Both the position numbers and the translations under genes were made by a program. Positions 23,465-28,465 of a stretch of 35,722 nt of DNA are shown one piece after another. Source of the stretch: Candidatus Zipacnadia bacterium (GTDB taxonomy: Bacteria > Armatimonadota > Zipacnadia > Zipacnadales > UBA5352); the NCBI GenBank assembly GCA_029820295.1, contig JALGVA010000033.1, positions 1 through 35,722 of the forward strand. The letters run 5' to 3'. The notes below the pieces were generated by a model. The model made no database searches and was not told the origin of the DNA. It worked only from the letters and a program-made list of their open reading frames with translations. Position 1 is the first letter of the stretch; every line of letters starts with the position of its first letter.

Positions 23465-25405
23465 GTGCCGCACTACGAGGCCCTGTTCGCCCCCGGACAG
23501 ATCGGCGGGCTGGCGCTCCCCAACCGCATCATCATGGCCCCGATGGGCAGCAACTTCGCCGACGAGAATCACGAGGTGACCAACCGGCTGATCGCCTACC
23601 ACGTCGCGCGCGCGGCCGGCGGCGTCGGGCTGCAGATCGTTGAGCACACCGCCGTCCATCCGCTGGGCCTGACCGGCGCGCACATGCTGGCGGTCTACGA
23701 CGACGCCATGATCCCGGGCCTGCGCCGGCTGACCGACGCCGTGCATGAAGCGGGCGGACGCATCGCCCTGCAGCTCCAACACGGAGGCCGCCAGGCCAGC
23801 GCAGACGTGATCGGGCAGCGGCCGATCGCGCCGTCGGCGGTGTCGGTGCGGGGGGGCGGCCGCCCGGAGAAAATGACCGAGGAGCAGATCCGTGAGGTCA
23901 TCGACGCCTTCGGCGAGGGGGCGCGGCGCGCCCGGGAGGCGGGCTTCGACGGCGTCGAGGTGCACATGGCGCACGGCTACCTGGGCTGCTCCTTCCTGTC
24001 CCCGCTGCTCAACCGCCGCGACGATGACTGGGGCGGCGACACGCAGCGACGCACGCGCTTCGGACGCGAGGTGCGCCGCGCCATCGCCGAGCGCTGCGGG
24101 GACGAGTTCCCGTGCTGGTGCCGCATCTCGGCGGACGAGTTCATCGACCAGGGCACGGACCTGGACGAGGCGCGCCGCTTCGCACCGATGCTCGCCGAGG
24201 CGGGCTACCAGGCGCTCCACGTCTCGGCGGCCATCGGCGAGACCAGCCGCTACGCGTCGGCGCCCTACTACATCGAGCCGGGCCACCTTCTGCCGCTGGC
24301 TGCGGGCATCCGCGAGGTCGTGGATGTGCCGGTGATCGGCGTCGGACGCATCCTGACCCCCGACCTGGCCGAGCGTGCGCTCGCCGAGGGCATGTGCGAC
24401 TTCGTGGCGCTGGGGCGGGCGCTGCTGGCCGATCCCCAGTGGCCCGCGAAGGCCCGCGAAGGGCGCGCCGAGGAGATCATCCCGTGCACCGGCTGCAACC
24501 TTGGCTGCAGCGACCGCTCATACAGCGACGGGCTGCTGCAGTGCACCGTGAACCCGTTCACCGGGCGTGAGATCGACTGGCCGGGCTACCCCGGCGGGTC
24601 GGAGCCCGAGCGCAAGCTGCGCGTGCTTGTGGTGGGCGCGGGGCCGGGCGGGATGCAGGCCGCGATCGTGGCCGCGCATCGCGGGCACGATGTGACGGTG
24701 TGGGAGCAGGCCGGGGATGTCGGTGGGGCGTTCCGGCTGGCGGCGATGGCGCCGGGCAAGAGCGTGTTCGCCGATTTCCTGCGCTGGCAGCGGGAGGAGC
24801 TGGAGCGCGCGGGGGCGCACCTGCAGACGCACACGCACGCGACGGATGAATCGGTGCTGCAGTTCGACCCCGACCAACTGATCGTGGCGACCGGGTCGCG
24901 GCCGCTGACATCGGCGGCGCTCCCCTACGGCGCGGGCGGGCGCTTCGTGCTGAGTGACGATGTGCTGAAGGGCGACGCGGAGGTCACCTCGCCGGTGTTC
25001 GTGGTGAGCAACATGGGCATGGGCGCGGAGATCGCGCACCTGCTGGCCGAGCAGGGGCACGCGGTGACGCTGCTGGAATCGGGCGACGATCCCGCGCCGC
25101 TGGTGCCGGCGGCCCCACGGGCGTTCCTGCTCGAGCGCCTGGAGGAGCTGCGCGTGACCATCCGCACGGGCCATCGCGTGCTGGGGCTCGACGCCGAAGG
25201 CATCCTGATCGAGGCCGATGGGCACGAGACGCGCGTGGACGATCCGGGCACGGTGGTGCTGGCGCTGGGCCGGCGCAGCGACGACGACCTGGCGTCGGCG
25301 CTGGAGGGGGCGCGAGTGAGCATGACCGTCATCGGTGACGCCCACCGCCCGCGCCACGCCCAGGCGGCGATCCACGAGGGAGCACTTGCCGGACGCGACA
25401 TCTGA
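23465..25405 (+). CDS. Old-yellow-enzyme/2,4-dienoyl-CoA reductase-like flavoprotein
   Basis: This 646-residue protein has three parts. An FMN-binding TIM-barrel (about 1-330) contains LPNRIIMAPMG, QLQHGGRQ and GFDGVEVHMAHGYLGCSFLSP, then RDDDWGG. A 4Fe-4S site follows at C341-x2-C344-x3-C348-x11-C360. The third part is an FAD/NAD(P)-binding domain beginning LRVLVVGAGPGG near 385. This is the full architecture of 2,4-dienoyl-CoA reductase and trimethylamine dehydrogenase-like enzymes; NAD(P)H electrons pass through FAD and Fe-S to FMN and reduce an activated C=C bond. The GTG start at 23465 follows GAGGAG by about 10 nt. It is followed after 23 nt by the UPF0173 gene. The actual substrate is unknown. 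Confidence 0.92.
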   Translation: MPHYEALFAPGQIGGLALPNRIIMAPMGSNFADENHEVTNRLIAYHVARAAGGVGLQIVEHTAVHPLGLTGAHMLAVYDDAMIPGLRRLTDAVHEAGGRIALQLQHGGRQASADVIGQRPIAPSAVSVRGGGRPEKMTEEQIREVIDAFGEGARRAREAGFDGVEVHMAHGYLGCSFLSPLLNRRDDDWGGDTQRRTRFGREVRRAIAERCGDEFPCWCRISADEFIDQGTDLDEARRFAPMLAEAGYQALHVSAAIGETSRYASAPYYIEPGHLLPLAAGIREVVDVPVIGVGRILTPDLAERALAEGMCDFVALGRALLADPQWPAKAREGRAEEIIPCTGCNLGCSDRSYSDGLLQCTVNPFTGREIDWPGYPGGSEPERKLRVLVVGAGPGGMQAAIVAAHRGHDVTVWEQAGDVGGAFRLAAMAPGKSVFADFLRWQREELERAGAHLQTHTHATDESVLQFDPDQLIVATGSRPLTSAALPYGAGGRFVLSDDVLKGDAEVTSPVFVVSNMGMGAEIAHLLAEQGHAVTLLESGDDPAPLVPAAPRAFLLERLEELRVTIRTGHRVLGLDAEGILIEADGHETRVDDPGTVVLALGRRSDDDLASALEGARVSMTVIGDAHRPRHAQAAIHEGALAGRDI

Positions 25406-25428: not shown

Positions 25429-26124
25429 ATGGCCGCAACGCTGAAGTATCACGGACACGCCTGCTTCTCGATGGCCGCCGACGGCCACCGGGTCATCATG
25501 GACCCGTTCATCAGCGACAATCCCCAGGCCGTGGAGGAGCTGGGCGACATCGACGTCGATGTCGTGCTCATCAGCCACGTGCACTCGGACCACCTGGGCG
25601 ACGGCATCGAGCTGGCGAAGCAGTGTGACGCGCTGCTCATCGCCACCTACGAGGTCGCGCTCTACTGCGAGAGACAGGGCGTCGAAGACGTCCGGCCCAT
25701 GCACATCGGCGGCTGGGCCGACCTGGGCTTCGTAACGGTGAAGCTCACGGTTGCCCATCACAGCTCCTCGATCGTCACTGACGACAGCATCCAGATGCTG
25801 GGCGCGGCGAGCGGCTTCATCGTTACCATGGGCGGGAAGCGGCTCTACTATCCGGGCGACACCGCACTGTGCGCCGACATGGAGCTGCTCGGACGGTTGA
25901 ACGACTTCGACGTGGCCACGATTCCCATCGGCGACACCTTCACAATGGGCGTGGATGATGGTATAATCGCCGCGCAACTAATCGGCGCAAAGCTGAACAT
26001 TCCTATGCATTTCAACACCTTCCCGGTGATCGCCGCCGATCCACACGAGTTCGTGCGCCGGCTGGAGGACGAGGGCCTGAGCGGCCGGGTCATGGAGCCC
26101 GGCGAGGAGATCGAACTCCCCTAG
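25429..26124 (+). CDS. UPF0173 metal-dependent hydrolase (metallo-beta-lactamase fold)
   Basis: This 231-residue protein is of the normal UPF0173 length. It shows MAATLKYHGHACFSM, then ISHVHSDHLGDG with metal ligands H50, H52, D54 and H55, VAHHSSSIV, YYPGDTALCADM and a late MHFNTFPVI. It should bind two divalent metals and hydrolyse a phosphoester, lactone or thioester; the family's physiological substrate is not established. The ATG at 25429 follows GGAGGG. It likely shares a transcript with the flavoprotein upstream. No membrane or export signal. Confidence 0.9.
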   Translation: MAATLKYHGHACFSMAADGHRVIMDPFISDNPQAVEELGDIDVDVVLISHVHSDHLGDGIELAKQCDALLIATYEVALYCERQGVEDVRPMHIGGWADLGFVTVKLTVAHHSSSIVTDDSIQMLGAASGFIVTMGGKRLYYPGDTALCADMELLGRLNDFDVATIPIGDTFTMGVDDGIIAAQLIGAKLNIPMHFNTFPVIAADPHEFVRRLEDEGLSGRVMEPGEEIELP

Positions 26125-26228
26125 CGCCGCCGGCGTCTGCGACAGTGACTGGATCGCGGAACACACCGCTTTCTCGCACGGGAGCCCGCGCGGTCCCGCA
26201 ACGACGATCGAACGATCGACAGGAGGTG

Positions 26229-26306
26229 ATGCAGTTGGGCAGTAGACACGACTGCAGAGCGATGGTGAAGGAGACCCCGACGCGAGGATGTGGTGCGGGC
26301 GGGTAG
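26229..26306 (+). CDS. Possible 23-25 residue leader peptide
   Basis: A very strong, nearly full-length Shine-Dalgarno sequence AGGAGGTGAT (26221-26230) precedes a small frame. The ATG at 26229 overlaps it, while an in-frame TTG at 26235 lies at the usual 8-nt spacing; the frame ends with TAG at 26304-26306. The product has two cysteines (C9, C21 from the ATG) and ends VKETPTRGCGAGG. It is followed directly by mutually exclusive hairpins, so it may be a regulatory leader peptide. A small secreted or modified peptide is the alternative. No family recognised; coding not proven. Confidence 0.35.
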   Translation: MQLGSRHDCRAMVKETPTRGCGAGG

Positions 26307-26393
26307 CGCTCCGTCCCGGATTGCATCCGGCTGAGGGGAAAGAATCTCAGTAGGGGTTTCCTCAGCCCGGCTCTGCGGTCTTTTCAGATCCAT

Positions 26394-26434
26394 GGCCCCG
26401 CCGCCAGACAGCCCTGTCTGATCCCGGCGGGGCC
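26394..26434 (+). terminator. Large GC stem with inner hairpin
   Basis: GGCCCCGCCG (26394-26403) pairs with CGGCGGGGCC (26425-26434). Between them, CAGACA and TGTCTG form a second 6-bp stem with a GCCC loop. There is no U-tract after it. It is 75 nt before the next start, so it could end the upstream transcript or act as the conditional terminator of the leader. Confidence 0.45.
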
Positions 26435-26509
26435 ACTTGATTCTGCAGGTGCCACGCGTCGGCACGCCGAACCCCACCGACACCCGTGTACTTCGCTGGA
26501 GGGATGACC

Positions 26510-28465
26510 GTGGCGCTCGTCCGAACCGTTGCCATCGTTGGCGTGATCGCCCTCGCCGCCGCCTCAGCGTGCGGTCAGGGAGCCACCGTCGCCGACCTCG
26601 AAGCCGCCATCGCGGCGGCCGGGCCCCCGCCGCGGGAGGCCACCGGAAGCGCGCCCTCGGTCTGGGACGTGAACCTGCCGCTCGCGCGCCTGAAGCTCAA
26701 GAAGGCACGCATGCTCGAGGCCGGGGGCGGGGGGATGTTCGTCATCGCCCGGCCGGAGGAGGCCATCGCCGAGGGCATGGAGGCGATGGCCATGTTCGAG
26801 CGCGGCGAGGTCTACCAACCGCCGCCCGGCGAGCTGACCGAGCTGGCCTACATCACGCGCAACGATGAGACCGTGCAGCCGTTCTACGTGCACATCCCCG
26901 ACAACTACGACCCCGCGCGCCCGTGGCCGTTGATTGTCTTCCTGCACGGCTACGTGCCGAGCATCACCATGGTCGATCCGTGGCTGCTGTCCGACGAAGT
27001 GTGCGACATCGCCGAGCGCAACGGCTGCCTGCTGGTGCTGCCCTACGCGCGCCGCAACACCGATTTCCAGGGCGTCGGCGAGGTCGATGTCTTCCGGGTG
27101 ATCGAGGAGATGCGGCGGCGCTTCAACGTCGATCCCGCACGCATCCACCTCTCCGGGGTGTCGATGGGCGGGATGGGCACGTGGACCATCGGTCTACGCA
27201 ACCCGGGCTTCTTCGCCTCGCTGGCGCCGATCTCCGGGCAGACCGACATGTTCCGCTGGTGGGGCTGGGACCCCGAGCGCATGACGCCCTTCAAGCGCTT
27301 CCTGGTGGAGTGGGACAATGCCGAGGAGATGGCGCTCAACGCGCGCGGGCAGAAGATATTCCTGCAGCACGGGGAGCTGGACCATCTCATCCCGGTGATC
27401 GAATCGCGTTCGATGGTCGCGCTGCTCGGGTCGCTGGGCCTGCCCATCGAGTACTACGAGTACGCGGGAGCCAGCCACTACATCTACTGGGAGACCGAGT
27501 GCTACGAGCGGGCGTGGGGCTGGTGCCGCGACCTGGTGGTCGATCCGTCGCCCCCAGAGGTCAACTTCCGCTGCTTCTCGCTCAACTACAACCGCGCGTT
27601 CTGGCTGACCATCGACCGGCTGGAGCACTGGGGCACAGCCGCGCACGTGACCGCGCGCGTGCAGGACGATGGCTCGGCGTTGGCCATCGACTGCGACAAC
27701 GTCGCGGCGTTGACCATCGCCCTCGACGACTGCCCGCTGCAGCCCGGCGCGGAGAGCTACCGTGTGAGCATCAACGGTGAGGAGCGCACCCTCCCGCCCG
27801 ACGAGGGCAGGCTGCGCATCGTGATTGATCCGCTGGAGCCGACGGCCGAGTGGCCGCCGCTCAAGCGCAAGGGCCTGTGCGGACCGGCGGAGGATGTCTT
27901 CAACTCGCGCTTCATCGTGGTGCAGGGCACCGCCGGCGATGACGCGCAGGACATGACCATCGCCGCGCAGGTGGGCGAGTGGGCCGAGGAGTGGGACGGC
28001 TTCGCCGACGGCGAGCCCATCGTGCGCACCGATGAAGCGCTGCTCAACGCCCAGATCGCGACCGCCAACCTGGTGCTGTTCGGCACGCCGGAGACCAACT
28101 CCGTGCTCGCGCGCATCGCCGACCGCCTGCCCGTGGAGATCGGCGACCATTGCTACGAGGTTCTGGGCCGGAGGTTCGAGGGCCCCGAGCTGGGCCTCGT
28201 GCTGTGCTACCCCAACCCGCTGGCGCCGGATCACTACGTGCTCATCTACGCAGGCGAACTCTACGGCCGCCACCTGTCGATCAACCACAAGCACGACATG
28301 CTGCCCGACTTCCTGATCTTCGACAGCACCATGCTCACAGTCGGCGACACGGAGGCGAACGTCTTCGGCGGCTGGTTCGACGTGGACTGGCAGCCCAGGC
28401 CCGAGCTGGCCTGGGAGGGCGCCGTGGACGCTGAGCCGGCCGCGCGCGCCGTGCCGGGCTGGTAG
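26510..28465 (+). CDS. Exported alpha/beta hydrolase (prolyl-oligopeptidase/esterase-like)
   Basis: This 651-residue protein has an N-terminal signal (ALVRTVAIVGVIALAAASAC, cleavage near ACG; the lipobox is imperfect). The alpha/beta-hydrolase domain spans about 115-350: PWPLIVFLHGYVPS, the nucleophile elbow LSGVSMGGMG with S218, D291 in HGELDHLIPV and H323 in GASHYIYW. The remaining about 300 residues are unassigned; part resembles the C-terminal region of peptidase-like esterases (ANLVLFGTPETNSVLARIAD). Start: GTG at 26510, 7 nt after GGAGG at 26498-26502; the ATG at 26504 is too near that site. It probably cleaves ester or acetyl groups, or peptides, outside the cytoplasm. It converges on the DUF2330 gene with a 10-nt gap. 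Confidence 0.8.
   Translation: MALVRTVAIVGVIALAAASACGQGATVADLEAAIAAAGPPPREATGSAPSVWDVNLPLARLKLKKARMLEAGGGGMFVIARPEEAIAEGMEAMAMFERGEVYQPPPGELTELAYITRNDETVQPFYVHIPDNYDPARPWPLIVFLHGYVPSITMVDPWLLSDEVCDIAERNGCLLVLPYARRNTDFQGVGEVDVFRVIEEMRRRFNVDPARIHLSGVSMGGMGTWTIGLRNPGFFASLAPISGQTDMFRWWGWDPERMTPFKRFLVEWDNAEEMALNARGQKIFLQHGELDHLIPVIESRSMVALLGSLGLPIEYYEYAGASHYIYWETECYERAWGWCRDLVVDPSPPEVNFRCFSLNYNRAFWLTIDRLEHWGTAAHVTARVQDDGSALAIDCDNVAALTIALDDCPLQPGAESYRVSINGEERTLPPDEGRLRIVIDPLEPTAEWPPLKRKGLCGPAEDVFNSRFIVVQGTAGDDAQDMTIAAQVGEWAEEWDGFADGEPIVRTDEALLNAQIATANLVLFGTPETNSVLARIADRLPVEIGDHCYEVLGRRFEGPELGLVLCYPNPLAPDHYVLIYAGELYGRHLSINHKHDMLPDFLIFDSTMLTVGDTEANVFGGWFDVDWQPRPELAWEGAVDAEPAARAVPGW

Follow-up and report, generated by a model that had tools for sequence, protein, structure and literature searches.

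A structured RNA family with a nested small open reading frame, and possibly a dual function, in uncultured Armatimonadota

Closest described systems

Ribosome-mediated attenuators of the trp type carry a leader ORF together with exchangeable RNA segments, and the position of the ribosome decides which of these segments pair. The RNA described here has a leader-like ORF with its own Shine-Dalgarno sequence ahead of alternative structures, as these attenuators have, but it fails two of their defining features: none of its exchangeable hairpins is the terminator, and no constant downstream gene goes with it. The mRNA of the type I toxin AapA1 reportedly contains a small ORF as well and is closed by long-range pairing between its 5' and 3' parts. 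The present RNA resembles it in the small ORF within a molecule closed by 5'-3' pairing, but the encoded peptides are charged and, by inspection, rich in Lys, Glu, Cys and Gly, rather than being hydrophobic membrane peptides.

Among described kinds of RNA, dual-function RNAs come nearest. In the part of the literature on SgrS/SgrT that is drawn on here (PMC4021124), the likeness comprises a small ORF in the 5' part and, putatively, a separate small transcript and a function of the RNA itself. The same source, as far as it is used, describes species that keep the RNA after loss of the SgrS ORF (Yersinia; a changed start codon in E. coli O157:H7), and places the pairing region downstream of the ORF, with low conservation apart from about 13 nt (PMC4021124). 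In contrast, the ORF of the present RNA makes up one half of a three-way junction that covaries, and its end keeps to a hairpin tip. VcdRP combines a 29-aa peptide and an RNA function in one transcript, as the present RNA may do; its base-pairing segment lies in the 3' part, and an ORF-threaded junction is not described for it in the sections of the source used here (PMC8672173).

A search against Rfam, which the initial annotation had proposed as a check, yields no family at the gathering threshold for the window or for five homologue loci, and the weak matches are all far under their cut-offs. A 6S RNA (RF00013) was considered and rejected, as the genome has its own 6S match on contig C179 and there is no match at this locus. 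A literature search of limited coverage did not retrieve an earlier description of this RNA. We take the structured RNA with its nested ORF to be a real and undescribed family. Our main reading, to which we assign a probability of roughly one half, is that it represents a small RNA gene, present once per genome and about 210-260 nt long, that encodes a translation-responsive dual-function RNA of a new family. Such a gene would be ordered as a 5' hairpin, a strong Shine-Dalgarno sequence, a small ORF, a three-way-junction RNA and a GC-rich hairpin. Comparison across genomes establishes the fold and where the stop codon sits in it, as well as the gene context and the pattern of peptide selection.

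The conserved fold and its distribution

The window, i.e., the whole stretch of 35,722 nucleotides that was analyzed, lies on contig C3 in a draft genome assembly of 5.63 Mb. The region 26125-26509 is flanked by genes for a beta-lactamase-fold metal-dependent hydrolase (25429-26124) and for an S9/esterase-like hydrolase. The 23-25 codon ORF behind a near-perfect Shine-Dalgarno sequence that the initial annotation had placed in this region is present as described, and is part of a conserved structured RNA with the following features.

26179..26198, + strand: 5' hairpin upstream of the Shine-Dalgarno sequence; a hairpin of differing sequence occurs here in most of the 15 homologues
26221..26230, + strand: Shine-Dalgarno sequence AGGAGGTGAT; GGAGGTGATGC is identical in 10/10 family genomes and AGGAGGT is present in the other five homologues
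26229..26306, + strand: small ORF of 25 codons plus TAG, or of 23 codons from TTG 26235; open up to hairpin A in 14/15 homologues
26250..26260, + strand: 5' strand of P1 (segment 1), within the ORF; MFE and covariation
26269..26278, + strand: 5' strand of P2, within the ORF; fold and covariation
26286..26328, + strand: hairpin A, with the ORF end as its 5' arm (segment 2), the stop codon in its tip and segment 3 as its 3' arm; covariation and single-sequence folds
26319..26325, + strand: core of segment 3, GATTGCA, alternative partner of 26374-26380; seven pairs, 56/56 cells paired, eight genomes
26330..26351, + strand: hairpin B, GCTGAGGGGAAAGAATCTCAGT; near-invariant in the family, covariation across families
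26353..26362, + strand: 3' strand of P2, overlapping CCTCAG, the alternative partner of hairpin B; fold and covariation
26370..26380, + strand: 3' strand of P1 (segment 4); fold and covariation
26394..26434, + strand: GC-rich hairpin, candidate terminator without a T-run; a GC-rich hairpin lies 3' of P1 in 15/15 homologues
26510..28465, + strand: S9/esterase-like hydrolase with its own Shine-Dalgarno sequence (Pfam PF00326 and PF00756, start, spacing); context, outside the RNA

The ORF supplies the 5' half of a three-way junction. In this dominant conserved fold, which differs from the one first described, P1 joins 26250-26260, within the ORF, to 26370-26380 and P2 joins 26269-26278 to 26353-26362, with hairpins A (26286-26328) and B (26330-26351) inside. 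The stretch 26221-26445 has a folding z-score of -5.5, and none of 200 shuffles is as stable. Folded alone, each of the 15 sequences yields P1, hairpin A and hairpin B; these folds beat all 100 shuffles in 13/15, with 1/100 (G022) and 5/100 (G014) shuffles as stable in the remaining two. Across the 15 sequences, 91.9% of the cells pair, and both partners change in 23/47 pairs and in 50 cells, compared to means of 11.3 pairs and 16.9 cells in shuffle controls (0/500 as high) and at most eight pairs in slid-structure controls, with the note that the alignment was fitted to the structure and thus favours it. For the putative 5' hairpin at 26179..26198, fold programs favour other pairings in the window, so that this part is the least certain.

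Translation from ATG 26229 gives the 25-codon product MQLGSRHDCRAMVKETPTRGCGAGG, with the stop codon at 26304-26306, and the alternative start at TTG 26235 (23 codons) has a better Shine-Dalgarno spacing. The sequence AGGAGGTGAT occurs nine times in the 5.63 Mb genome. The stop codon resides in the apical loop of hairpin A in 11/15 homologues and at most 5 nt off in G004, G008 and G023; it is displaced from the tip only in G001, in which the ORF is frameshifted and the RNA fold retained. Since ORF lengths range from 17 to 34 codons, several changes in length have left the match between stop codon and hairpin tip intact.

Both stems of the initial annotation and the GC stem (26394-26434) are indeed present, and the two stems do share bases 26329-26330 as described, but the dominant conserved fold had been overlooked. 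Stem 1, CCGGAT/ATCCGG (26316-26321/26325-26330), is not conserved: only 50% of its cells are paired in eight genomes and 215/500 shuffles are as good, for which reason it was rejected as a conserved element. Stem 2, GGCTGAGG/CCTCAGCC (26329-26336/26360-26367, with the AAA/TTT extension), fares better, being 91% paired with one double change, although 59/500 shuffles equal it.

The RNA is found in 15 genomes, comprising all 10 of the window's family (f1) and five in three sister families. A DNA search of 61 genomes retrieves the leader at E < 1e-30 in seven other genomes of the window's family (74-78% identity), in which conservation extends from the Shine-Dalgarno sequence to the GC stem. Covariance model R1, built from these eight sequences, finds a single copy in each of the 10/10 family genomes and a weak match in G022, and the rebuilt models R2 and R3 add G013, G014, G019 and G023. 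With the final model, R3, 15 of the phylum's 291 genomes give one match each (E <= 1.6e-8); the three matches that come next, with E 0.027 to 0.21, are excluded from the count. R3 was built from these same 15 and matches them by construction, so that R1 and R2 are the models that made independent discoveries. Across the order (41 genomes), carriers amount to 10/10 in f1, 3/4 in f6, 1/7 in f4, 1/2 in f5, 0/3 in f2 and 0/15 in f3.

Other candidates were set aside. G246, G050, G263, G221 and other weak matches were kept out of the family for their weak scores; inspection by eye of the matches in G246, G011, G263 and G029 showed that the arrangement of ORF and hairpin B is absent, and a pattern match in G263 was dropped as it sits in coding-like sequence. 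The GCGCGK pattern has two matches in the 41 genomes, one being the G022 homologue and the other lying in an unrelated long frame of G023. A phylum scan for a Shine-Dalgarno sequence combined with GCGCG gives four matches in three genomes. Beyond the phylum, coverage consists of a single exact-pattern scan of GTDB with 22 matches, 17 of which were dropped as they do not have hairpin B; the other five are genomes already in the set.

Several observations concern the surroundings of the RNA. Directly 3' of the GC hairpin (26435-26450), the window has a ACTTGATTCTGCAGGT-like sequence that is fairly conserved in its family. An OYE-type oxidoreductase (23465-25405 in the window), kin to mycofactocin-system and BaiCD enzymes and scoring well under their cut-offs, occurs near the RNA locus in most family members. 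In G009, the upstream beta-lactamase-fold hydrolase gene is an apparent remnant (L016, about 1731-2035), and the RNA and the S9 gene are kept. The S9 homologue of G006 (L098; G006:C44:38478-40251) is split into two pieces in different frames, the break lying either in the genome itself or in its assembly. Where examined, TAG codons flagged in frame in S9 homologues turned out to be natural ends or not to be there.

Alternative pairing and translation

Folding and conservation point to two mutually exclusive folds and, likely, to a translation-dependent switch between them. When everything 5' of a point 12 nt beyond the stop codon is deleted and the remainder refolded, a mimic of a terminating ribosome that consists solely of this deletion of the ORF, hairpin B opens in 11/15 sequences, its 5' strand pairs farther downstream and the pairing extends stem 2, GGCTGAGG/CCTCAGCC. 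Hairpin B stays closed in G014, G019, G022 and G023. In the window's family, stem 2 forms the inner portion of a longer hairpin, where GATTGCA of segment 3 (26319-26325) pairs with TGCGGTC of segment 4 (26374-26380), the latter otherwise pairing with the ORF in P1.

For this 3:4 helix, 56/56 cells are paired in eight genomes, against 27-40% in slid controls; one pair shows a double change and 66/500 shuffles are as good. The alternative helices each have one double change, with 42, 59 and 66 of 500 shuffles as good. Compared to shuffles of segment 3, the 3:4 duplex stands out in G013 (0/300), G005 (p 0.003), G019 (0.007), G023 (0.02), G014 (0.03) and G007 (0.03) and is weakly or not above shuffles in the other nine (e.g., window p 0.22, G006 0.35, G022 0.29), these values being 15 separate, uncorrected tests. 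The initial proposal is partly borne out: the ORF, the Shine-Dalgarno sequence and a structure that a ribosome would have to remodel go together, and mutually exclusive pairings are conserved, but they are mostly other pairings than the two named.

With no ribosome on the ORF, segments 1 and 4 (P1) and segments 2 and 3 (hairpin A) would be paired and hairpin B displayed. A ribosome that has arrived at the stop codon, where hairpin A has its tip, would open 1:4 and 2:3 and allow segment 3 to pair with segment 4; in the window's family, hairpin B would then open into the longer stem. The RNA may thereby report whether its own ORF is under translation. We guess that activity resides in the untranslated form and is exerted at the RNA level, either in trans or on its own stability.

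A related reading, which we consider less probable, dispenses with the peptide altogether. Here, a free-standing RNA would sense its own translation, the ORF in the window's clade mainly allowing ribosomes to flip the folds and the untranslated form with hairpin B signalling to the cell reduced translation or a shortage of charged Cys or Gly tRNA, with neither an attached gene nor a peptide being needed.

Neighbouring genes, peptide and biological role

The initial annotation interpreted the arrangement as attenuation or a riboswitch upstream of an exported hydrolase. As a cis-acting leader, the RNA would switch folds upon translation of the ORF and so alter read-through into a downstream gene for an exported protein (ribosome-mediated attenuation). 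A co-directional gene lies 3' of the RNA in 14/15 genomes (all but G013), and its product looks exported in our reading of the N-termini. In 10/10 f1 genomes this is the S9/esterase gene, with its own Shine-Dalgarno sequence, 159-397 nt after hairpin B. In f6, an unassigned protein is followed by S9 (with a low-complexity frame between in G014), such that in G014, G019 and G023 an S9 gene is located farther downstream on the same strand; in G022, a beta-helix protein follows. Moreover, TGCGGTC is followed by TTTT in the window, by which the 3:4 hairpin could terminate weakly.

Against this reading, the RNA of G013 is not a leader, because the next gene, for an EamA protein, is convergent, and in G022 and G013 the hydrolase homologue and the RNA are found on different contigs. 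The GC hairpin at 26394-26434 has no T-run, matches no terminator consensus and lies outside both alternative folds, forming in either state. A stretch of regulatory codons in the ORF is not apparent on inspection of the peptides. The proposed attenuation or riboswitch control of an exported hydrolase therefore finds no support in the unlinked and convergent loci and in the GC stem, and a role as leader appears doubtful to us. The RNA may nevertheless act in cis in the 14/15 genomes with a co-directional gene, and so too in the window's own family, where the hydrolase follows in 10/10.

The promoters were inspected as well. A sigma70-like promoter resembling TTGACA/TATAAT, with a 17-nt spacer and 9-11 of 12 matches, is located just upstream of the RNA in 6/15 genomes (G002, G006, G013, G014, G019 and G023), and in G008 the upstream neighbour is a divergent LexA gene. 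A canonical promoter adjoining the RNA was not found in the window; its best match (TTCACA, 17 nt, TATAAT and TG; 11/12, sigma70-like) is inside the upstream hydrolase gene at 25939-25967 and could drive the RNA. Overall, the RNA looks like a gene of its own rather than a leader of the hydrolase, and the attached-gene reading is weakened.

The peptides of G006, G022, G014 and G019/G023 are rich in Cys, Lys and Glu with GCGCG motifs near the end, e.g., MSESKGCCTKKKEEKKEETKKSGCGCGCGSKKKA, and four to six cysteines occur per peptide in G006, G022, G014 and G019. Synonymous codon changes are in excess between G014 and G019 (6/8, expected 1.7, p 0.002), G006 and G022 (8/14, expected 2.0, p 0.0002) and G014 and G022 (11/18, expected 2.4, p 3e-6), comparisons that share sequences and are not independent. 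No such signal is present in the window's clade, where synonymous changes make up 21/187 of the pairwise changes (expected 21.7) among seven of the eight close genomes, the frameshifted G001 being left out, and a BLOSUM-based coding test on the eight family ORFs gives p 0.36. Likewise, G002 and G013 do not show a coding signal (3/18 synonymous versus G007 and 2/12 versus G022, respectively). Some peptide selection could be masked by structural constraint on third positions. Pfam and NCBIfam contain nothing that matches three of the peptides.

Judging from these codon changes, the peptide is under coding selection in sister families, while in the window's clade this selection is absent and the fold and the Shine-Dalgarno sequence persist. 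In the hydrolase tree, G006 groups with G002 as the sister of the other eight, and f6 is placed next to f1 as its sister (supports of 0.94 and 0.98, with weak values at several nodes), a topology that fits an ancestral coding peptide lost in the window's clade. The RNA of the sister families would then also yield a selected peptide, and in the window's clade the RNA role would remain after peptide selection had gone.

An ordinary small-protein mRNA, with the (perhaps metal-binding) peptide as the product and a fold that only stabilises or autoregulates the mRNA, would account for the coding selection and the cysteines in G006, G022, G014 and G019 and for the conserved Shine-Dalgarno sequence. 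We deem it unlikely, as the window's clade keeps the fold without peptide selection and G001 keeps it after losing the frame. A metabolite riboswitch with an incidental ORF, for which the compact three-way junction and the near-invariant loop of hairpin B could be cited, is highly improbable in view of the absent Rfam match, the inconsistent downstream gene and the stop codon that tracks the hairpin tip.

Returning to the dual-function reading, the locus contributes an undescribed family of structured RNAs, from uncultured bacteria of a poorly known group, whose ORF runs through the fold and stops at the tip of a hairpin. The coding and apparently non-coding members of this one family offer a natural comparison of how a dual-function RNA can lose its peptide and keep its RNA role. 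If the switch is true, the RNA would be a compact, gene-independent reporter of translation. That the fold is kept by evolution where the tiny protein seems no longer to matter suggests an RNA that responds to being translated.
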